A DNA stretch of 64,000 bases, from NCBI RefSeq assembly GCF_014203015.1, contig NZ_JACHIB010000020.1:1-64000 (forward strand), given 5' to 3'. The notes under the pieces are model-generated. The model did not search any database, was not told where the DNA came from, and saw nothing but the letters and a program-made list of their open reading frames with translations. The number at the start of each line of letters is the position of its first letter. The first letter of the stretch is position 1. The position numbers and the translations under genes are program-made. The stretch comes from Castellaniella defragrans (GTDB lineage: Bacteria; Pseudomonadota; Gammaproteobacteria; Burkholderiales; Burkholderiaceae_B). Below, one piece after another: positions 23,985-33,194 of the stretch.

Positions 23985-24665
23985 TCAGTCGAGCAGTTCC
24001 AGTCGCGACACGCCGTCCTGCCCCGCCACCAGCGCCACCTGGGCGCCGGAGATCGCGAACAGACCGCAGCAGACCACGCCCGGGATGTTGTTCAGCAGCG
24101 CCTCGAATTCGGCGGGATCGCCGTAGTTCAGGCCGGAAACGTCCAGGATCTGGTTGCCGTTGTCCGTGACGAAGCCTTCGCGCAGGCACGGCTGCCCGCC
24201 CAGCTGGCGCACCTGCCGGGCGACGGCCTCGCGCGCCAGGGGGATGACCTCGATGGGCAGCGGAAAGGCGCCCAGGCGCTCGACCAGCTTGGACTCGTCG
24301 ACGATGCAGACGAAGCGGTCCGCCACCGAGGCGACGATCTTCTCGCGCGTCAGCGCCCCGCCGCCGCCCTTCACCATGTTCAGCTGGGGGTCGATCTCGT
24401 CGGCGCCGTCCACGTACAGCGCCAGCGCGGCCACGTCGTTCAGGTCCAGCACCTCGATGCCCGCCGCCCGCAGGCGGCGCGTGCTGCGCTCCGAGCTGGA
24501 CACCGCCGCGCGGAATTCCTGCCGGTGGGGCGCCAGCAGGTCGATGAAGCGGTCCACCGTCGATCCCGTTCCCACCCCCAGGATGCTGTCGGGCTGCAGT
24601 TGCGGCAGCACGTGGTCGAGGGCGGCCTGCGCCGCCTGTTGCTTGAGTTCGTCCTGAGTAAGCAT
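23985..24665 (-). CDS. rpiA: Ribose-5-phosphate isomerase A
   Basis: Interconverts ribose-5-phosphate and ribulose-5-phosphate in the non-oxidative pentose phosphate pathway. The 226-aa protein has the phosphate loop [37 protein letters not shown] with the catalytic Asp, and [15 protein letters not shown] with the catalytic Lys. The family length is 219-230 aa. The ATG lies at the edge of a long tandem repeat array that separates it from the divergent sirtuin gene. It is followed on the same strand by phoU after a 212-bp gap that holds the PHO box. Confidence 0.96.
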
Positions 24666-24710
24666 GGGGATGTCCGGAGAGGGTCTGGGAGGCCCGTATT
24701 GTAATTTGCA

Positions 24711-24873
24711 ATGGTCCCGTTCCTCGCAATGGCCCCCGTTCCGTCATGGCACCCCGTCCCGTCATGGCGCCCCGTCCCGTCATGGCACCCCGTTCCGTCA
24801 TGGCACCCGTCCCGTAACGGCGCCGTTCCGGCGACGCATCTTTCCGGCGACGCATCCTTCCGGCGACGCATTC
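24711..24873. repeat. Composite tandem array: six units of about 18 bp and three of 16 bp
   Basis: Between the divergent rpiA and sirtuin genes, six 17-18 bp units of the type ATGGCACCCCGTCCCGTC run from 24711 to about 24816. Three 16-bp units TTCCGGCGACGCATCY then follow at 24826-24841, 24842-24857 and 24858-24873. The last 16-bp unit merges into a dyad-like motif (24862-24880). The array fills nearly the whole spacer, so any promoter of either gene must lie in or beside it. Confidence 0.85.
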
Positions 24874-24880
24874 TGTCGTG
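24862..24880 (+). promoter_or_regulatory. Operator-like motif upstream of the sirtuin gene
   Basis: GGCGACGCATTCTGTCGTG matches the motif before the AAA+ ATPase gene at 15 of 19 positions, including GGCGAC and ATTCTGTCG. The dyad is weaker here (CGAC/GTCG arms only). The left half-site GGCGACGCAT is repeated twice more upstream in the 16-bp array, which may mean repeated binding sites or chance. It lies 50 bp before the sirtuin ATG. Confidence 0.4.
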
Positions 24881-24930
24881 GGCCGCCGCTAGACTGGCTT
24901 TGTGTCCCCACTCGCAAAGGAATCGCAGCA

Positions 24931-25755
24931 ATGCCGCCCACCGAAGCACAATGGAACCGCGCCCTGGACTACCTGCGCGCAGCCCAGGGGCTGCTGATCA
25001 CCGCCGGCGCCGGCATGGGCGTGGATTCGGGCCTGCCGGACTTCCGCGGCAAGGAGGGCCTGTGGAAGGCCTATCCCGCCCTGCGCCAGGCCCGCCTGGA
25101 TTTCAAGCGCATCGCGCAGCCCGAGGCCTTCGACCGCTGGCCCGCGCTGGCCTGGGGCTTCTATGGCCATCGCCTGTCCATGTACCGCCGCGCCGTGCCG
25201 CACGCAGGCTTCGGCATCCTGCTGCGCTGGGCCGAACGCCTGCCCCATGGCGCCTTCGTCTTCACCAGCAACGTCGACGGCCAGTTCCAGCGGGCGGGCT
25301 TCGACCCGGACCGCATCCTGGAATGCCACGGTTCGCTGCACTGGATGCAATGCCACGCCCATTGCCGGTCGCGGATCTGGCCGGCCGACGGCTTCGAGCC
25401 GGATGTCGATCCGCATACCTGCCGCCTGCGCTCCCCGCTCCCGCTTTGTCCCGACTGCGGCGCCCTGGCCCGCCCCAACGTCCTGATGTTCAACGACCTG
25501 GACTGGGAAATGGCACGCATGGTGGCCCAACGCGACCGTCTGAACGCCTGGCTGGAATCCGTCGGCGGCGACCGCCTGGCCGTCATCGAACTGGGCGCGG
25601 GCCAGGCGATCCCGTCGGTGCGCCACTTCAGCCTGCGCACCGGCCACCCCATCCTGCGCATCAACGTCCGCGACAGCGCCATTTCTCCGCGCTGGGGCGT
25701 GGGCCTGGAAGGCACGGCGCTGCAGACGCTGCGATGGCTGGACGCCCGCATCTGA
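24931..25755 (+). CDS. Sir2-family NAD-dependent protein deacylase
   Basis: A 274-residue sirtuin; it would use NAD to remove acyl groups from lysines in cytoplasmic proteins. The NAD loop reads GAGMGVDSGLPDFRG (bacterial subclass with MGVDSG instead of ISAESG). TSNVDGQF matches the conserved ribose-binding segment and ECHGSLHW holds the catalytic His. Zinc ligands are plausible in QCHAHC and LCPDCG. The ATG at 24931 follows AAAGGA; an in-frame upstream extension is repeat-encoded and rejected. The WYL regulator starts 35 bp downstream, so the two are probably one operon. NADase activity, as in defence SIR2 proteins, cannot be excluded. Confidence 0.88.
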   Translation: MPPTEAQWNRALDYLRAAQGLLITAGAGMGVDSGLPDFRGKEGLWKAYPALRQARLDFKRIAQPEAFDRWPALAWGFYGHRLSMYRRAVPHAGFGILLRWAERLPHGAFVFTSNVDGQFQRAGFDPDRILECHGSLHWMQCHAHCRSRIWPADGFEPDVDPHTCRLRSPLPLCPDCGALARPNVLMFNDLDWEMARMVAQRDRLNAWLESVGGDRLAVIELGAGQAIPSVRHFSLRTGHPILRINVRDSAISPRWGVGLEGTALQTLRWLDARI

Positions 25756-25790
25756 TCCATACTGGCGGTTTTACGCGCCCCGCCCCCGAC

Positions 25791-26759
25791 ATGGCCAAAC
25801 GATCCTCGACCCTGGAAACCACCCTGCTGGCACTGGAAATGCTGCGCCGGATTCCACGCGCCCCCCGCTCGATCACCGCCGGCGAACTGCACGCGCAACT
25901 GGTCGCCAGCGGCTTTGAACGCGACCTGCGCACCATCCAGCGGCAGCTGGACATGCTCAGCACGCACCTGGGCATCGAACGCGACGACGGGAGCGCCCCC
26001 TACCGCTACCGGTGGCTGCCGCACGCCAGGCCGCTGGCCATCCCCCACCTGAGCCCGCAGGAATCCCTGCTGCTGAAGCTGGCCGAGGAACACTTGCGCC
26101 CCCTGCTGCCCGCCCACCTGATGAAATCCATGGAAGGTTTCTTCGTCCAGGCGCGGCACAACCTGGAACCCGATGGCAATGCCCGGCTGGAACGCGAATG
26201 GCCGTCCAAGATCCGCACCGTCGCCACCAGCCAGCCGCTGCTGCCGCCGAAAATCGTGCCCGGCGTGCTGGAGACGGTCAGCGAAGCCCTGTACCATAAC
26301 CATTGGCTGCGGCTGGACTACAAGAATGCCGCCGGCCGGCGCACGACGGTCGAAGTCATGCCCCTGGGCCTGGCCCAGCAAGGCCCCCGCCTGTATCTGG
26401 TGTGCCGCTACCGGGGGTTCGACAACGAGCGCAGCCTGGCCCTGCACCGCATCCTGAGCGCCGGGCAGGCCTCCACCATCCCGTTCGACCGGCCCCGGGA
26501 TTTCGACCTGGCACAATACGACGCCGACGGCCGCTTCCGCTTCGGCGAGGGCGCGCTCGTCCGCCTGCGCTTCCGGATCGACCGGCGTACCGGCCATCAT
26601 CTGCGGGAAACGCCGCTCTCCAAGGACCAGACGGTCACCGAGTGCGACGGCGACCGGCTGGAAATCGCCGCCACCGTGGTCGACAGCGCCATGCTGGACC
26701 AGTGGCTGAAGGGCTTCGGCGACGCGGTGGACGGGGTGCAAAAGGAGGCGGTGGCCTGA
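25791..26759 (+). CDS. WYL-domain transcriptional regulator
   Basis: A 322-residue regulator with an N-terminal winged-helix region (about residues 5-70; ITAGELHAQL and RDLRTIQRQLDML look like the recognition helix) and a central WYL domain near residues 165-230 (HWLRLDYKN, then PLGLAQQGPRLYLVCRY). WYL domains bind small ligands or nucleic acid; members control DNA-damage responses (PafBC, DriD) and phage-defence genes (CapW, BrxR). It is probably co-transcribed with the sirtuin and lies 205 bp before the EcsC gene. It is the only DNA-binding regulator in this part of the window and the best candidate to bind the shared dyads. Confidence 0.9.
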   Translation: MAKRSSTLETTLLALEMLRRIPRAPRSITAGELHAQLVASGFERDLRTIQRQLDMLSTHLGIERDDGSAPYRYRWLPHARPLAIPHLSPQESLLLKLAEEHLRPLLPAHLMKSMEGFFVQARHNLEPDGNARLEREWPSKIRTVATSQPLLPPKIVPGVLETVSEALYHNHWLRLDYKNAAGRRTTVEVMPLGLAQQGPRLYLVCRYRGFDNERSLALHRILSAGQASTIPFDRPRDFDLAQYDADGRFRFGEGALVRLRFRIDRRTGHHLRETPLSKDQTVTECDGDRLEIAATVVDSAMLDQWLKGFGDAVDGVQKEAVA

Positions 26760-26881
26760 GCCGCTGCGCCGGCGTGGCCGGGCAGCGCGCGTCGCTGTGG
26801 CTGCAGGCGCGCGTCGCCTCCCCTATCCGGGGGCGCGGGCATGCGCGATGCGACATGCACGGCGCGATTCATAGAATCAGT

Positions 26882-26916
26882 GTGACGACAAAGCCCTGGC
26901 GTCATATTCTGTCGCG
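26882..26916 (+). promoter_or_regulatory. Promoter with operator-like motif upstream of the EcsC gene
   Basis: GTGACG (26882-26887) and TATTCT (26905-26910) are spaced by 17 bp. The -10 lies inside GGCGTCATATTCTGTCGCG (26898-26916), which matches the AAA+ ATPase promoter at 17 of 19 positions, with the same 10-nt distance from TGACG. The dyad arms here are GCGTCA/TGTCGC, one mismatch from perfect. The motif ends 48 bp before the EcsC ATG. Confidence 0.6.
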
Positions 26917-26964
26917 TACCGGTCCGATCATGGCTCCGTTCCCATTGTCTCCAGGAGTTTTCCG

Positions 26965-27774
26965 ATGAACGTCACGCCCTTCTCCCCAGCCGACCTCGAC
27001 GCCCTGCGCCAGGCCCACGCCCTGCTTGAAAACCCGGGCCTGGCCGCGCGCATGACGAACCTGGTCGGCACGCCCATCGAGAAAGTCCTGGACCGGCTGC
27101 CCGAAGGCTGGAGCGCCCAGATCGGCCAGGTCACCCGGCTGGCGCTGAGCAAGGCCGCCGACGCCGCCCTCTTCACGATGGACGACAAGCCCCGCGACCG
27201 CAGCTCGAACTGGTGGCACAAGGTGGGCGCGGCCGCCACCGGCGGCGTGGGCGGCTTCTTCGGCCTGCCCGGCCTGGCGGTGGAACTGCCGATCTCCACC
27301 ACGATCATGATGCGCTCGATCGCCGACATTGCCCGCAGCGAAGGCGAATCGCTGGCCGATCCCGGCACCCGGCTCGCCTGCCTGGAAGTCTTCGCCCTGG
27401 GCGGCAAGAGCGCGGCCGACGACGGCGCGGAAAGCGGCTACTACGTGGTGCGCGCGGCGCTGGCGCGCGCCATCAGCCAGGCCGCGGAATACGCCGCCGG
27501 CAGCGTCGCCGTCGAGAAAGCCGCCCCGCCCGCCCTGATGCGCCTGATCACGATGGTGGCCGAGCGCTTCGGCATCCAGATCACCGAAAAGGCCGCCGCC
27601 CAGGCCATCCCCGCCCTGGGCGCGGCGGGCGGCGCCCTGATCAACACCCTGTTCATCGACCACTTCCAGGACATGGCGCGGGGGCACTTCATCATCCGGC
27701 GGCTCGACCGGCGCTACGGCACGGAGGTGGTGCGGCTGGCGTACGAAGACCTGCACGGGCGGCGCGCGGACTGA
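26965..27774 (+). CDS. EcsC-family membrane-associated protein
   Basis: A 269-residue EcsC-domain protein. The family is named after B. subtilis EcsC, encoded with an ABC exporter, but its activity is unknown. Glycine-rich hydrophobic stretches (AAATGGVGGFFGLPGLAVELP near residues 90-110 and ALGAAGGALINTLF near 215-228) look membrane-interacting. HFQDMARGHFIIRRLDRRYG is the conserved C-terminal signature. CAGGAG lies 8 bp before the ATG. It has its own promoter with the motif shared with the tandem-AAA+ gene. No ABC exporter is adjacent. Confidence 0.88.
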   Translation: MNVTPFSPADLDALRQAHALLENPGLAARMTNLVGTPIEKVLDRLPEGWSAQIGQVTRLALSKAADAALFTMDDKPRDRSSNWWHKVGAAATGGVGGFFGLPGLAVELPISTTIMMRSIADIARSEGESLADPGTRLACLEVFALGGKSAADDGAESGYYVVRAALARAISQAAEYAAGSVAVEKAAPPALMRLITMVAERFGIQITEKAAAQAIPALGAAGGALINTLFIDHFQDMARGHFIIRRLDRRYGTEVVRLAYEDLHGRRAD

Positions 27775-27910: not shown

Positions 27911-29386
27911 ATGCTCGACCTATTCTCCGGCTTGCCCCTTTCGGTCGGGCTCAGCCTGGTCCTGGCGCTGGCCCTCGTCCTGGTCTTTGAATTCATCAAC
28001 GGCTTCCACGACACCGCCAATGCCGTCGCCACGGTCATCTACACCAAGGCCATGCCGCCGCACCTGGCGGTGCTCTTCTCGGGCATCTGCAACTTCCTGG
28101 GCGTGCTGCTCGGCGGCGTGGGGGTGGCCTACGCCATCGTCCACCTGCTGCCCGTGGAGCTGCTGCTCAACCTGGACAGCGGGCGCAGCCTGGCCATGGC
28201 GTTCTCCATGCTGGCCGCCGCCATCGTCTGGAACCTCGGCACCTGGTATTTCGGCATCCCCGCGTCCAGCTCGCATACGCTGATCGGCGCGATCCTGGGC
28301 GTGGGCCTGGCCAACGCCCTGCTGACCGGCCTGCCCGTGGGCATCGGCGTGAACTGGGGCAAGGCCATCGACATCGGCCTGTCGCTGATCATCTCGCCCG
28401 TGGCCGGCTTCATCGTCGCGGCGCTGCTGCTGCTCGGCCTGAAGAGGCTGTTCGCCGGCTCGAAGATGCACAAGACGCCCGAGCAGCGCCGCGCCATCGA
28501 CAACAAGAAGCACCCGCCCTTCTGGAACCGGCTGGTGCTGGTGCTGTCGGCGATGTGCGTGAGCTTCGTGCACGGTTCCAACGACGGGCAGAAAGGCATC
28601 GGCCTGATCATGCTGGTGCTCATCGGCATCGTCCCGGCCAAGTTCGTGCTGGATCCGGCCAGCACGCCCTACCAGGTCCAGCGCACCGTCGACGCCGCCG
28701 CCCACCTGGGCGACTTCTACCAGCGCAACGCGGATACGCTGGGCGACTACCTGGCGCTCAAGCGGCCGCTGCGCACCGATCCGCCCCAGACGGCCCACTG
28801 CGATCCCCAGGATACGATGAGCGTCATCCGGGCGGTGCGCCGCAGCCTGGACGGCGTGCGCGTCTATGACGACCTGCCGCCCGACGCGCGCGTGCGCCTG
28901 CGCCGCTACCTGCTCTGCCTGGACGACACCGCCCGCAAGGTGGCCGGCCTGGACGCGCTGTCCCTCAGCGAAAAAGCCGATCTGCGGCGCCTGCGCGCCG
29001 ACCTGACCGCCACGACGGAATACGCGCCGCTGTGGGTGATCGTCGCCGTCGCGCTGGCCCTGGGCGCCGGCACCATGCTGGGCTGGCGCCGCGTGGTACT
29101 GACCGTGGGCGAAAAGATCGGCCGGCAGGGGATGACCTACGCCCAGGGCATGGCCGCCCAGACCACCGCCGTCGTCGCCATCGGCGTGGCCAACATCTTC
29201 AGCCTGCCGGTCTCCACCACCCAGGTGCTGTCCTCGGGCGTGGCCGGCACCATGGTCGCCAACCGCAGCGGCCTGCACAACGGCACCGTGCGCATCATCC
29301 TGCTGGCCTGGCTGCTGACCTTCCCGGCCAGCATGCTGCTGTCGGCGGGGCTGTTCAGCCTGGCGGTGTGGGGGTTGGGGGTGTGA
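27911..29386 (+). CDS. Inorganic phosphate transporter, PiT family
   Basis: A 491-residue membrane symporter for phosphate (E. coli PitA 499 aa). The two inverted PiT signatures are visible: NGFHDTANAVAT near residue 27 and FVHGSNDGQKGIGL near residue 218. About ten hydrophobic segments flank a cytoplasmic loop (roughly residues 245-375) rich in charged residues, as in PitA. The C-terminal half repeats the transporter fold (ANIFSLPVSTTQVLSSGVAG). With phoU 4 kb away this gives a low-affinity, constitutive phosphate route, but the two are not in one operon. Confidence 0.94.
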   Translation: MLDLFSGLPLSVGLSLVLALALVLVFEFINGFHDTANAVATVIYTKAMPPHLAVLFSGICNFLGVLLGGVGVAYAIVHLLPVELLLNLDSGRSLAMAFSMLAAAIVWNLGTWYFGIPASSSHTLIGAILGVGLANALLTGLPVGIGVNWGKAIDIGLSLIISPVAGFIVAALLLLGLKRLFAGSKMHKTPEQRRAIDNKKHPPFWNRLVLVLSAMCVSFVHGSNDGQKGIGLIMLVLIGIVPAKFVLDPASTPYQVQRTVDAAAHLGDFYQRNADTLGDYLALKRPLRTDPPQTAHCDPQDTMSVIRAVRRSLDGVRVYDDLPPDARVRLRRYLLCLDDTARKVAGLDALSLSEKADLRRLRADLTATTEYAPLWVIVAVALALGAGTMLGWRRVVLTVGEKIGRQGMTYAQGMAAQTTAVVAIGVANIFSLPVSTTQVLSSGVAGTMVANRSGLHNGTVRIILLAWLLTFPASMLLSAGLFSLAVWGLGV

Positions 29387-29390
29387 GGGG

Positions 29391-29426
29391 GGCATCGCCG
29401 GTATCCTCGGCATCGCTGGTACCCCC
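29391..29426. repeat. Degenerate 18-bp repeat after the Pit gene
   Basis: GGCATCGCCGGTATCCTC (29391-29408) is followed by GGCATCGCTGGTACCCCC (29409-29426) and a partial third unit GGTATCGC. The array starts 4 bp after the Pit stop codon, as in other arrays of this window. Confidence 0.65.
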
Positions 29427-29461
29427 GGTATCGCACATCATGGCATCCGCTCTCTGGCGGC

Positions 29462-29491
29462 TTGACAGTATCTCAATGGAGATACAGAATC
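29462..29491 (+). promoter_or_regulatory. Toxin-antitoxin promoter with palindromic operator
   Basis: A perfect -35 TTGACA (29462-29467) is followed after 17 bp by CAGAAT (29485-29490). The spacer is a perfect inverted repeat: GTATCTC (29468-29474), loop AATG, GAGATAC (29479-29485). An operator between -35 and -10 is the usual arrangement for RelB/DinJ autorepression, so this is the probable binding site of the antitoxin or antitoxin-toxin complex. It ends 28 bp before the antitoxin ATG. Confidence 0.8.
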
Positions 29492-29513
29492 CATGGAAAG
29501 GGAGGATCGGCTC

Positions 29514-29786
29514 ATGGCCCATTCCACGATGCTGCACGTCCGGGTGGACGAGGAAATCAAGACGCAGGCCAGCGAAGCACTGGCGGCGATGGGGCTGTCC
29601 GTCTCCGACGCGGTACGCATCCTGCTCAAGCGCGTGGTCAACGATCAGGCTTTCCCGCTCGAACTGAAGGTGCCCAACGCGGCCACACGCGCGGCCATGG
29701 AAGAAGCCCGCGCCATCGCACAGTCCCGTGCAGCACGGTTCAGTTCCGCGGACACGCTGATCGATGACCTCGAAAAAGCCAGCTGA
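29514..29786 (+). CDS. dinJ: Antitoxin, RelB/DinJ family
   Basis: A 90-residue antitoxin that neutralises the adjacent toxin and represses the operon. The N-terminal LHVRVDEEIKTQASEALAAMGLSVSDAVRILLKRVV is the ribbon-helix-helix dimer fold that binds DNA; the C-terminal part (about residues 55-90) is the toxin-wrapping tail. I chose the ATG at 29514 because GGGAGG lies 8 bp before it; a start at 29493 would put that site inside the gene. It overlaps the toxin gene by 23 bp. Family assignment is strong; orthology to E. coli DinJ is inferred from the pairing. Confidence 0.9.
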   Translation: MAHSTMLHVRVDEEIKTQASEALAAMGLSVSDAVRILLKRVVNDQAFPLELKVPNAATRAAMEEARAIAQSRAARFSSADTLIDDLEKAS

Positions 29787-30084
29787 CAGCAAGCGGGCCA
29801 GGCCTCCGAGGACGTGCGACCACACCCGGGCTTTTCTCAAGGATTGGGAACGTCTTTCCCACTCGGGCCGCTACGATCTGACACGCCTGAAGGACGCAAT
29901 GCTGCTGCTCATCGCGGACGATGCGCCGCTGGGCCCCGAATGGCGGGACCACCCGCTCAAGGGCGAGTGGGCCGACCACAGGGAATGCCATATTGGCGGC
30001 GATTTCCTGCTGATCTACCGGGCGGATGGCCATGCCGTCATCTTCGTGCGGACCGGCACGCATTCGGAATTGTTTGAAGAATGA
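29764..30084 (+). CDS. yafQ: mRNA-interferase toxin, YafQ family
   Basis: A 106-residue RelE-superfamily toxin that would cut mRNA in the ribosomal A site. DHPLKGEWADHRECHIGGDFLLIYR and RTGTHSELF match the YafQ core; the His, Asp, Arg and final His-x3-F residues correspond to the catalytic set of E. coli YafQ. The N-terminus is about 15 residues longer than usual and Lys/Arg-rich; a later start cannot be excluded, but the overlap with the antitoxin supports 29764. It is convergent with the tandem-AAA+ gene. All catalytic positions seem intact, so it is probably active. Confidence 0.9.
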   Translation: MTSKKPADSKRARPPRTCDHTRAFLKDWERLSHSGRYDLTRLKDAMLLLIADDAPLGPEWRDHPLKGEWADHRECHIGGDFLLIYRADGHAVIFVRTGTHSELFEE

Positions 30085-30159
30085 GGGACGAGGCTTGTCA
30101 AGCGACATCAGGAATCGCCCCCTGATAATTATCGATATCAAACACAAACGACAAGTTCT
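30085..30159. other. Convergent gap between toxin and AAA+ gene
   Basis: Seventy-five AT-rich bases. ATCAGG and CCTGAT form a weak 6-bp stem around AATCGCCC, followed by AATTATCGATATC. This may end transcription from one or both sides but is too short a stem for a confident terminator call. Confidence 0.3.
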
Positions 30160-32307
30160 TCAAACAAACCCAATCCCCCTCTTCCCGGCATCCGGCTTCA
30201 AATCCATCTCCATCCGCAAAGCCCCCAACACCCCCACATGATCCGCAAAGGGCTTGAACCGGTGCTGACGCGCGATGACGGCGAAATCCCCCGGAGCCAG
30301 CATGCGCATTCCATCCAGCACCCGCCAGACGGACTCGCTCGGTTCCAGCAAACCCATCGCCTTGCTGTGCCGCTGATACAAGGCCCGTGCCTGCTCCGGC
30401 CTCAGATAATGAAACCGGACCTTCAGGTCGAACCGGCGCAATGCCGCCTCATCCAGGTTGTCCATCAGATTGGTGGAGGCGATGAAAACCCCGGTGAAGG
30501 ATTCCATTTGCGTCAGCATTTCATTGACCTGGGTGATTTCCCAGGACCGGCTGGCCCCCCGGCGGTCCTGCAGGAAACTGTCGACCTCGTCGATCAGCAG
30601 GATCGCACCGTCCCGCTGGGCGGACTCGAAGGCCTCGGCGATCTGTTTTTCGCTTTGACCCACCCACATGGACAGCAGATCGGACGCGCGGCGTACCAGC
30701 AGCGGCTTGTCCAATTCGCGCGCCAGCCACTGCGCCCAGGCGGTCTTGCCGGTGCCGGGCGGGCCGTACAGGCACAGGCGCGCGGATTCCACACGCGCCA
30801 GCCCCTGGACCAGGGACGGCAGGTCGGCATCCGCGCAGGACAATGCGGGGTCGTAGGTGTCGGGCAGATCGGCGGCTGACGCCCGCAGCAGCGCATCCTG
30901 GCCACAGGCTTTCAATGTGCCGCCGATCAGACGCTCGATGACCGCGCCGGTGTCGGCGTGCGCGGCAGCGCCCGCCGGATCGGATTGCGCCAGATGCACG
31001 ACATCAACAGCTCGAGTCAGCAAAGCCGGCGGCAACTGCTCGATGGCGGACAGGCGTGCCTTGGCCCGGGATGTCAAAAAATCCCCAACGGCGGATTCGA
31101 TCAGTTCCGCCCGCTGCCGGCGGGCCGGCACGGGGATTTCGATGACCAGATCGAAGCGGCGCAGGTAGGCCGGATCGATGCAGGCCACCGAATTGCTGAT
31201 CCAGAGGGTCGGGACGGGATTTTCCTCCAGCAGGCGATTGATCCAGGCCTTGCTGATCTGCATATGGGCACTGCCACGGGACACCAGGAATCGGCCCGCC
31301 CCCGCAAACACGTCTTCGGCTTCGTCGAACACCAGCACAGGCCGGGGGCTGCGTGCGAATACGCACTGTGCGGTCCGGTAGGCGCGCAGACGCTTGTCGC
31401 CGCCGATGGCGTCACCGTCCTCGTCCTCGATGCAGACCTCGAAAGGCGATGCGTCCAGCATCTGGGCCAGCAGGCGGGACAACTGGGTCTTGCCGGTGCC
31501 CGGGCGGCCATGCAGCAAGACATTCACGCCGGGACGTCGGTGCGCCAGGGCCTGGCGCAGATAGGGAATCAGGGTGTCCAGCCAGGGCTGCACGTGAACA
31601 TAGTCGTTCAACGACAGTTCCGGTGCGGGCGGCATGGATACGACACCTTCCAGCAACTCGACAGGTTCCGCATCGCGCGAGATCAGCGTGGCGGCAAACT
31701 GATCCGAGACGAACGAGAAAGAACTTTTATCGTATTTGGAGCCCAGCGACCAGGAGACGGACAAGAGGCCGCTGCGGACCAGGCGTCCTTTGGACGACAG
31801 CACGGCCTGGATATCGGCCGGCGCGTGCTCCAGCAAGGAGCCCAGGACACGATACATGCGGCTCGGACTCAGGGCATTGCCCAGCAATTCCATGGTTTCG
31901 CCCAGCAGCGAGTTATTGGCCAGCAATGCCGTGAATTCCAGGATGGTCCGCTCGGCCGCGGTCAGCCCCATCAAGGGCGCCAGGCGATCCAGGTTGCGAC
32001 GCAGAGGACTGTCGTCCTCGTCCTGCTCGGCCTGTTCTTGCTCAGCCGCCTCATGCTGTTCGCGCAGCAACCGCAAGACGGTCTTGGGGTCGAAGTCCTC
32101 TTCGTCCATATCGACCCAGTCATCCAGGCCCAGAGCACGCGCGATGTCATCGTCATAAAGGCGGTCCTTGTCGATGAATTTGCGATGGCCCTGCAAGGGC
32201 ACCAGGATGCGCAGCATCCAGAGGTGCGTCTGACGATCCAGGGAACGCTCCGGACGGGCGCTCCCGATCTTGATCCGGCTTTTTTTGGGGCTGGCGATAC
32301 GCGACAT
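30160..32307 (-). CDS. Orphan tandem-AAA+ ATPase
   Basis: A 715-residue protein with two AAA+ modules. An N-terminal region of about 230 residues, rich in acidic and Gln/Glu residues near 85-100, has no domain I know. Module 1 has Walker A GRPGTGKT (267-274) and Walker B VLVFDEAED (324-332); module 2 has GPPGTGKT (515-522) and LLIDEVDS (570-577). Both have LRRFDL as likely Arg-finger region. The second module resembles FtsH/Cdc48-type unfoldases, but no protease is fused or nearby. AGGAG sits 6 bp before the ATG, inside a hairpin. The promoter shares its motif with the EcsC gene. Composition is less GC-rich than the core genes around it. Confidence 0.85.
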   Translation of the reverse strand: MSRIASPKKSRIKIGSARPERSLDRQTHLWMLRILVPLQGHRKFIDKDRLYDDDIARALGLDDWVDMDEEDFDPKTVLRLLREQHEAAEQEQAEQDEDDSPLRRNLDRLAPLMGLTAAERTILEFTALLANNSLLGETMELLGNALSPSRMYRVLGSLLEHAPADIQAVLSSKGRLVRSGLLSVSWSLGSKYDKSSFSFVSDQFAATLISRDAEPVELLEGVVSMPPAPELSLNDYVHVQPWLDTLIPYLRQALAHRRPGVNVLLHGRPGTGKTQLSRLLAQMLDASPFEVCIEDEDGDAIGGDKRLRAYRTAQCVFARSPRPVLVFDEAEDVFAGAGRFLVSRGSAHMQISKAWINRLLEENPVPTLWISNSVACIDPAYLRRFDLVIEIPVPARRQRAELIESAVGDFLTSRAKARLSAIEQLPPALLTRAVDVVHLAQSDPAGAAAHADTGAVIERLIGGTLKACGQDALLRASAADLPDTYDPALSCADADLPSLVQGLARVESARLCLYGPPGTGKTAWAQWLARELDKPLLVRRASDLLSMWVGQSEKQIAEAFESAQRDGAILLIDEVDSFLQDRRGASRSWEITQVNEMLTQMESFTGVFIASTNLMDNLDEAALRRFDLKVRFHYLRPEQARALYQRHSKAMGLLEPSESVWRVLDGMRMLAPGDFAVIARQHRFKPFADHVGVLGALRMEMDLKPDAGKRGIGFV

Positions 32308-32309
32308 GA

Positions 32310-32330
32310 AAAGCTCCTGTGATGAGCTTT
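32310..32330 (-). promoter_or_regulatory. Hairpin enclosing the AAA+ gene ribosome site
   Basis: AAAGCTC (32310-32316) and GAGCTTT (32324-32330) are perfect inverted repeats with a 7-nt loop. The Shine-Dalgarno AGGAG (minus strand, 32314-32318) lies in the stem and loop, so the folded mRNA would partly hide it. It could equally be a protein-binding dyad in DNA. Confidence 0.55.
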
Positions 32331-32345
32331 CATTGTCCGCATGCG

Positions 32346-32380
32346 GGCGACAGAATATGTCGCCATCAGAGGGCCGTCAG
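32346..32380 (-). promoter_or_regulatory. Promoter with perfect dyad upstream of the AAA+ gene
   Basis: On the minus strand CTGACG (32375-32380) and TATTCT (32352-32357) are 17 bp apart. The -10 is inside GGCGACA-TATTC-TGTCGCC (32346-32364), a perfect 7-bp inverted repeat with 5-nt centre. The same layout, TGACG-N10-GGCG, occurs before the EcsC gene. It lies between the potI stop (32385) and the AAA+ start; no T-tract follows, so a potI terminator is less likely than an operator. Confidence 0.65.
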
Positions 32381-32384
32381 CCCC

Positions 32385-33194
32385 CTACCCCGCCCGCTTC
32401 GCCGCCTGGATCTGCATGCGGTTGACCGCCACCACGACGATCCCCACGGCGACCATGAACAGGGTCGCCAGGGCGTTGATCTCGGGTTTCAGGCCCAGGC
32501 GCACGCGGGAAAAGACTTCCAGCGGCAGGGTCGTGTAGCCCGGGCCGGACAGGAAGGATGCCACCACCACGTCGTCCAGCGACAGGGTGAAGGACAGCAG
32601 CCACGCGGCCAGCAGGGCCGGGGCGATCAGGGGCAGCGTGATCTGGAAGAACACCCGCAGCGGCGAGGCGCCCAGGTCCAGGGCGGCCTCTTCCAGCGAG
32701 CGGTCCAGGTCGCGCACGCGCGACTGGATGATGACGGCGACGTAGGCCGTGCACAGGGTCACGTGGCCCACCCAGATGGTGAACATGCCGTTGCCGTCGG
32801 GCCAGCCGAACACCTTGGACATTTCCACGAACATCAGCAGCAGCGAAATGCCCAGCACGACCTCGGGCATGACCAGCGGGGCGCTGAGCATGCCGATGTA
32901 CAGGCCGAAGCCGCGGAACCGCCCCATGCGCGCCAGCACGTAGCCGGCCCAGGTGCCGACCGCCACCGCCGCGGTGGCGGTCAGGGTGGCGATGGCGAGC
33001 GAGAGCTTCGCCGCCGACAGCAGCGCCTGGTCCTGGAACAGTTCCGCGTACCAGCGCAGCGAGAAGCCCGACCACGAGGTCATCAGCGTGGAGTCGTTGA
33101 AGGAGAACACCATCAGGCAGGCGATGGGCACGTACAGGAAGCCGTAGCCGACCACCAGCGTGAGGAAGCGGAACCAGCCGCCGCCGCGCTTCAT
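32385..33194 (-). CDS. potI: Putrescine ABC transporter permease PotI
   Basis: Inner-membrane permease (269 aa), second of the PotHI pair. Six hydrophobic segments; the EAA loop reads EEAALDLGASPLRVFFQITLP, where the permease contacts the ATPase. Start at the ATG of MKRGGGWF (33194), which overlaps the potH stop by 4 bp. The longer open frame to 33323 runs inside potH and is not membrane-like. Last gene of potFGHI. Substrate preference for putrescine over spermidine is inferred from the four-gene order with PotF. Confidence 0.92.
   Translation of the reverse strand: MKRGGGWFRFLTLVVGYGFLYVPIACLMVFSFNDSTLMTSWSGFSLRWYAELFQDQALLSAAKLSLAIATLTATAAVAVGTWAGYVLARMGRFRGFGLYIGMLSAPLVMPEVVLGISLLLMFVEMSKVFGWPDGNGMFTIWVGHVTLCTAYVAVIIQSRVRDLDRSLEEAALDLGASPLRVFFQITLPLIAPALLAAWLLSFTLSLDDVVVASFLSGPGYTTLPLEVFSRVRLGLKPEINALATLFMVAVGIVVVAVNRMQIQAAKRAG

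Follow-up and report, generated by a model that had tools for sequence, protein, structure and literature searches.

The N-domain of Cdc48-type ATPases consists of a double-psi barrel and a beta-clam. Among regulators with the WYL fold, the Caulobacter activator DriD recognizes the site ATACGAC(N7)GTCGTAT, which overlaps the -35 region and keeps a constant spacing to weak -10 elements; DriD is stimulated by single-stranded DNA (ssDNA), acts in a non-SOS response to DNA damage, counts nuclease genes among its targets and does not regulate its own gene (PMC12340889). BrxR and CapW, two other WYL proteins, also bind palindromes, those of BrxR being repeats with a 5-bp spacer (PMC9122601, PMC9122588). 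DUF2779 proteins possess an RNase H-like domain with predicted 3'-5' exonuclease activity (PMC3985635); our literature search found no functional data on DUF2779, or on WYL, AAA and Sir2 proteins occurring together. We compare with these systems a tandem-AAA+ ATPase encoded in the window, by which we mean the whole 64-kb stretch of DNA analysed.

The ATPase and the insert that carries it

The ATPase gene (30160–32307, minus strand), an ORF with an ATG start that is supported by motifs, Pfam matches and conservation, is a single-gene transcription unit and encodes 715 aa: an N-terminal helical and winged-helix-like region (~20–225), AAA1 (~231–480) and AAA2 (~481–715). The two modules are intact, with Walker A (GRPGTGKT, 267–274; GPPGTGKT, 515–522) and Walker B (VLVFDEAED from 324; LLIDEVDS from 570) exactly where an earlier interpretation of the locus (the sequence-only reading) had located them. 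Residues G267, K273, D328, E329, R383 and R384 of AAA1 and G515, K521, D573, E574, R624 and R625 of AAA2 are invariant in 75 homologues; because these include the catalytic glycines and lysines, the acidic pairs of Walker B and the arginine pairs, ATP hydrolysis is expected of both rings. In the confident AlphaFold2 model (pLDDT 91.2, pTM 0.86) the two AAA modules can be superposed together on the double ring of p97/Cdc48 and on that of NVL; the superposition on p97 (7lmz_A) has Z 19.1 and rmsd 5.9, with 439 residues aligned.

Pfam detects only the AAA family (PF00004; two stretches, 3e-44) and covers none of residues 1–230, which the sequence-only reading had likewise left unassigned. In structure prediction, which it had recommended for this region, the N-terminal 245 residues folded alone yield a helical model (pLDDT 89.6) with a winged-helix-like part at ~97–221, but no clear fold match. 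The best one, to the winged-helix protein ST1889 (Z 7.1, VIA search), is weak, and Foldseek returned no match at E <1. Hence the fold is only weakly assigned, and a DNA-binding role of this domain is only a suggestion. Rows for MarR-like proteins and for the C-terminal domain of RuvB have Z near 5, under the reliability mark, and the RuvB likeness was dropped as evidence.

NCBIfam and PADLOC give partial matches to IetA and CDC48, far below the cut-offs where a cut-off exists; for the CDC48 model (TIGR01243) the score is 93 bits against 802.65. The IetA models are the best match in the defence library (130.7 bits), as would befit a defence ATPase of the IetAS kind that works with a protease, but the IetA family model with a cut-off of 510 bits gives only 122.3, and the best-scoring stretch is AAA2 of a protein that has tandem rather than single AAA modules. 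Since, in addition, no subtilase (IetS) turned up in the scan of window genes or in the annotations of the plasmid neighbourhoods, we rejected this identity on score and partner, and consider it barely credible.

The mRNA leader of the ATPase (32308–32337, minus strand) is predicted to form a strong hairpin with 7-bp arms, AAAGCUC/GAGCUUU (-15.5 kcal/mol, z -3.0), whose stem takes in part of the Shine-Dalgarno sequence, and translational control through this hairpin is possible. The gene has a GC content of 63.6%, below that of the flanking core genes (66–72%), as had been noted before; the whole window has 70.0%.

The ATPase gene lies in an insert of 2,998 bp (29387–32384), placed exactly between the convergent stop codons of a PiT transporter gene and potI. 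In two genomes of the same genus (G002 and G003) the gene order is rpiA-ecsC-PiT-potI-potH-potG-potF, and their alignment with the window breaks off after base 29386 and starts anew at base 32385. Since the two break points sit directly next to each other in G002 as well as in G003, the intervening 2,998 bp constitute an insert. The ATPase shares it with genes for a DinJ/RelB antitoxin (29493–29786, plus strand; PF04221, TIGR02384) and a YafQ mRNA-interferase toxin (29764–30084, plus strand; PF15738, TIGR02385), which overlap in the complete DinJ-YafQ arrangement and are, as stated in the sequence-only reading, convergent with the ATPase gene. Another insert (~24705–26964), between rpiA and ecsC, carries sir2 and wyl.

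Within the genus the ATPase occurs in 2 of 10 genomes, including that of the window, and the other copy is only 47% identical, versus 83–98% for the core genes of these genomes. It is present in 14 of 268 genomes at the rank of family (some with just partial or single-AAA matches), 34 of 399 at that of order and 22 of 369 at that of class. The family is thus patchy (5–9% of genomes per rank), with copies on plasmids too. Judged by sequence, the ATPase gene is accessory and was acquired by horizontal transfer; conservation of the locus as core genome is not seen, as the flanks join directly in G002 and G003. Together with the two-ring Cdc48-like architecture, this agrees with the type of protein originally proposed, an accessory unfoldase or remodelling machine. 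A decayed copy broken by frameshifts or stops (L147, G062 C274) is consistent with an accessory gene open to loss. Other variants include a homologue with an internal deletion of residues ~384–485 that fuses parts of both modules (L164, G328 C12), two divergent paralogues encoded side by side (L176, G875 C20), and an ATPase accompanied by WYL and Sir2 genes in a record labelled as bacteriophage from human faeces (L084, MT835507.1), which may represent bacterial DNA or a mobile element.

The occurrence of dinJ-yafQ and a lone ATPase transcription unit in one insert could mean that the toxin-antitoxin pair stabilizes the insert and that proteins damaged by stress are handled by the ATPase on its own, the sharing of its operator being coincidental. 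However, DinJ/YafQ homologues were found at no other ATPase locus examined, which argues against the pair as a recurrent partner of the ATPase; the operator is common to several genes of the window and recurs across the ATPase family, as do WYL and DUF2779 neighbours (see below). We therefore regard independent action of this kind as very unlikely.

The shared palindrome and the recurrent neighbours

The candidate operator of the ATPase, GGCGACATATTCTGTCGCC (GGCGACA-TATTC-TGTCGCC; 32346–32364, minus strand), lies 38 bp before the start codon and is followed, 8 bp downstream, by the -10-like hexamer GACAAT. The promoter dyad mentioned in the sequence-only reading is thus present as this palindrome, in addition to the hairpin at the ribosome-binding site. 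The motif was spotted in the window's own site and then tested on the homologues, where the consensus is TGCGACA-N5-TGTCGCA (19 bases). With at least 10 of the 12 fixed bases it is found upstream of 52 of 88 ATPase homologues, whose loci are related rather than independent, as compared with 2.5% of random 270-bp windows from the same loci; 36 homologues have no good operator.

A position weight matrix (PWM) trained on the homologue sites, with the window's own site left out, detects exactly three sites above 9 bits in the 64 kb: that of the ATPase, one before sir2 (GGCGACGCATTCTGTCGTG, 24862–24880, plus strand; 12.7 bits, 53 bp before the start codon, TAGACT 9 bp downstream) and one before ecsC (GGCGTCATATTCTGTCGCG, 26898–26916, plus strand; 48 bp before the start codon, GATCAT 9 bp downstream). 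In Markov simulations the mean number of sites with at least 12 bits was 0.31 per 64 kb and the maximum 2. Of the 12 fixed bases, the sir2 site retains 10 and the ecsC site 11, which makes both of them weaker; the CGAC-N7-GTCG core is exact before the ATPase and sir2 genes, and one half-site base is off before ecsC. The region preceding the sir2 site (24716–24860) has 18-bp tandem repeats (CCCCGTCCCGTCATGGCA), after which come three copies of the half-site GGCGACGCAT, the last alone being a full palindrome.

The Sir2-family gene (24934–25755, plus strand; PF02146) is the first of a sir2-wyl operon; an in-frame ATG exists upstream at 24664, and homology begins near 24934. The WYL transcription factor gene (25791–26759, plus strand; PF13280 and PF25583 over cut-off) follows after 35 bp and codes for a protein of wHTH-WYL-WCX layout, its wHTH being deduced from sequence. 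Alignment to G002 and G003 resumes exactly at the start codon of the EcsC-family gene (26965–27774, plus strand; PF12787). By this alignment the promoter region of ecsC is replaced by the sir2-wyl insert, and ecsC thereby gained its operator; the PWM finds none at the native ecsC locus of G002 and G003, and one or two at extra ecsC copies that stand beside wyl in G001 and G002. EcsC homologues were encountered at no other ATPase locus examined.

Across the loci of the ATPase family, operators also precede DUF2779, WYL, Sir2, macro-domain and histone-deacetylase-fold genes. Good examples are a histone-deacetylase-fold gene (L155:15887-16783) and a macro-domain gene (L146:5945-6529), which together with Sir2 hint at an acyl/ADP-ribose theme. 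Elsewhere in the window's own genome, a strong operator of 22.6 bits (L196:15683-15701; C20 ~75682) is followed at ~100 bp by an ORF that encodes a DUF4351 domain, possibly a further member. Overall, the assignment of the ATPase, sir2-wyl and ecsC to one regulon is well supported by sequence.

A search for constant partners, suggested in the sequence-only reading, revealed that WYL and DUF2779 proteins are the commonest neighbours within 7 kb across ~100 ATPase loci: the former occur at 54 (including the window) and the latter at 35, in 19 cases immediately downstream on the same strand. One or the other is present within this distance at 32 of the 38 closest loci, and most of the remaining loci are on short contigs. 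In the 399 genomes of the order, ATPase and DUF2779 co-occur in 15 genomes versus 3.6 expected (p 8e-8), often only a few kb apart; at the genome level, association with this WYL is moderate both for the ATPase (p 3e-4) and for Sir2 (p 0.003). DUF2779 proteins hold a Cas4/PD-(D/E)XK-like part. The same search that finds them in 42 of 399 relatives finds no DUF2779 partner in the window's own genome.

The window Sir2 is 58, 53 and 46% identical to the Sir2 proteins encoded beside the ATPase family in L144, L083 and L140, and the window WYL protein is 60–70% identical to those of ATPase operons; in G008, from the same genus, only 46 bp separate the ATPase gene from that for WYL. In L149 (G050) and L150 (G020) a shorter single-AAA relative is flanked by a Sir2 and a WYL gene, and the operators preceding wyl are perfect; this is a smaller version of the ATPase-Sir2-WYL set. 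The description of the ATPase as an orphan thus had to be abandoned. The accompanying statement that no protease, chaperone or secretion partner is encoded nearby is literally correct, but it missed the sir2-wyl operon and ecsC, which carry the same operator 2.4–7.4 kb from the ATPase gene.

Promoter architecture and the WYL regulator

The profile of the window WYL family best matches the structures 7u02, 7tzv, 9cu3, 9pfq and 8tp8 (E 3e-13 to 1e-12), followed by PafBC (9e-12), 7qfz (2.6e-4) and CapW (9c5g, 9e-3). Two of them, 9PFQ and 8TP8, are identified as DriD in the literature (PMC12340889, PMC11804915), and from the identical alignments we infer that 7u02, 7tzv and 9cu3 are DriD as well. 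Rows for TAL effectors in the same search were discarded as repeat artefacts.

Of the 46 distinct promoters of homologues, 36 have a TATAAT-like hexamer (at least 4 positions) 8–9 bp after the palindrome, compared with 1 of 46 at control offsets, and no conserved -35 element is recognizable before it in these promoters. The three -10-like hexamers of the window match at just 4 of 6 positions each. A loose DriD pattern from the literature that tolerates up to 3 mismatches is of no use given the GC content of the window (more than 100 matches); it is only the exact core and the PWM that discriminate.

Many WYL proteins, BrxR and CapW among them, are repressors with similar palindromes. The regulator could accordingly be of this type and keep the ATPase, sir2-wyl and ecsC silent until phage infection, in which case the genes would form a dispersed anti-phage module and not a damage regulon. 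WYL regulators do co-localize with defence genes, and neighbours of the ATPase homologues include the BREX genes pglZ/brxD as well as DUF2357, HipA and PLD/SNF2 genes. The 5-bp spacer is that of BrxR sites (PMC9122601, PMC9122588), and a -35-like CTGACG (4 of 6), spaced 17 bp from a TATTCT that falls within the operator of the ATPase, would suit a repressor sitting over the -10 element. On the other hand, the WYL profile is far closer to DriD and PafBC than to CapW or 7qfz, the operator matches the DriD consensus at the level of individual bases, and the promoters of the family share a -10-like hexamer after the operator and have no -35, which is what activated promoters look like. Repression is for these reasons the unlikely, although not negligible, alternative.

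The proposed regulon and its relation to known systems

The ATPase would then belong to a DriD-like WYL regulon that responds to ssDNA and DNA damage (or to phage), and would act as a Cdc48-type remodeller, a conclusion that we hold with some, but by no means full, confidence. At the level of sequence it draws on the insert, the conserved ATPase centres, the shared operator and its conservation throughout the family, and the recurrent WYL and nuclease neighbours; the presence of WYL beside a second ecsC but without the ATPase in G001 and G002 counts against it, as do the weaker sir2 and ecsC sites, the homologues that have no good operator, and the site before sir2-wyl, given that DriD does not control its own gene. 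For activation, the inducer and the substrate of the ATPase we infer the following. In analogy to DriD, ssDNA arising from DNA damage or phage replication would bind the WYL domain of the regulator, for which we propose the protein encoded at 25791–26759, acting on all three operators. The activated protein would occupy the operator over the -35 region, recruit RNA polymerase to the weak promoters, and switch on sir2-wyl, ecsC and the ATPase together. As the control site of the ATPase matches that of DriD, its induction by DNA damage or phage attack alongside these neighbours is probable. To judge from its architecture, the ATPase could assemble into a double-ring hexamer that unfolds and threads proteins or strips them off, the winged-helix-like N-terminal domain selecting the substrate, probably at nucleic acid. 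In many relatives such action would give the DUF2779 exonuclease access; in the window's genome the co-induced partners would be Sir2 and EcsC. The stress or phage-defence role suggested in the sequence-only reading is retained in flavour and sharpened: the evidence points first to a DNA-damage regulon of the DriD type, and phage defence is possible.

More tentatively, and with our doubts slightly prevailing, we propose a mobile regulon marked by the operator, whose mutually unrelated accessory members (ATPase, DUF2779, Sir2, macro-domain, HDAC-fold and EcsC genes) would travel through Proteobacteria alone or a few at a time. As each would bring along a DriD-type promoter, a WYL protein already resident or acquired with them would tie them all into one ssDNA-triggered response to damage or phage. 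An uncharacterized family of bacterial Cdc48-like ATPases thus gains a proposed regulator with its control site, ssDNA as the predicted inducer, and a set of recurrent partners, which makes its function directly testable. The findings also suggest that SOS-independent damage control of the DriD type extends beyond the housekeeping genes of Caulobacter and organizes accessory genes that move horizontally, which would couple the sensing of DNA damage to content resembling that of defence islands. The 19-bp site can be used for discovering further members of unknown function.

Compared with known systems, the ATPase resembles Cdc48/p97/VAT and NVL/Rix7 in its two tandem classical AAA modules with Walker A, Walker B and arginine-finger residues, but it falls far short of the CDC48 family cut-off, no match to the Cdc48 N-domain was found for its predicted helical, winged-helix-like N-terminus, and its gene is a patchy accessory rather than a housekeeping one. 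With IetAS it shares a related AAA2 module and differs in the tandem AAA arrangement, the N-terminus, the lack of a protease partner among the genes scanned and a score far below the family cut-off. BrxR and CapW share with the regulator the WYL fold, palindromic operators (with the spacer of BrxR) and a neighbourhood of defence type, but the profile match is weaker and the promoters fit activation over repression. DriD gives the best profile match: the wHTH-WYL-WCX layout recurs, the spacing between CGAC-N7-GTCG and a weak -10 is fixed, and the nuclease genes among DriD targets have their counterpart in the operator-bearing DUF2779 genes. In contrast to DriD, which does not control its own gene, the site here precedes the operon that contains wyl, and the proposed targets are mobile, patchily distributed genes for an AAA+ ATPase, Sir2, EcsC and DUF2779. 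The parts, an AAA+ ATPase and a WYL activator, are of known kinds; their combination is new.
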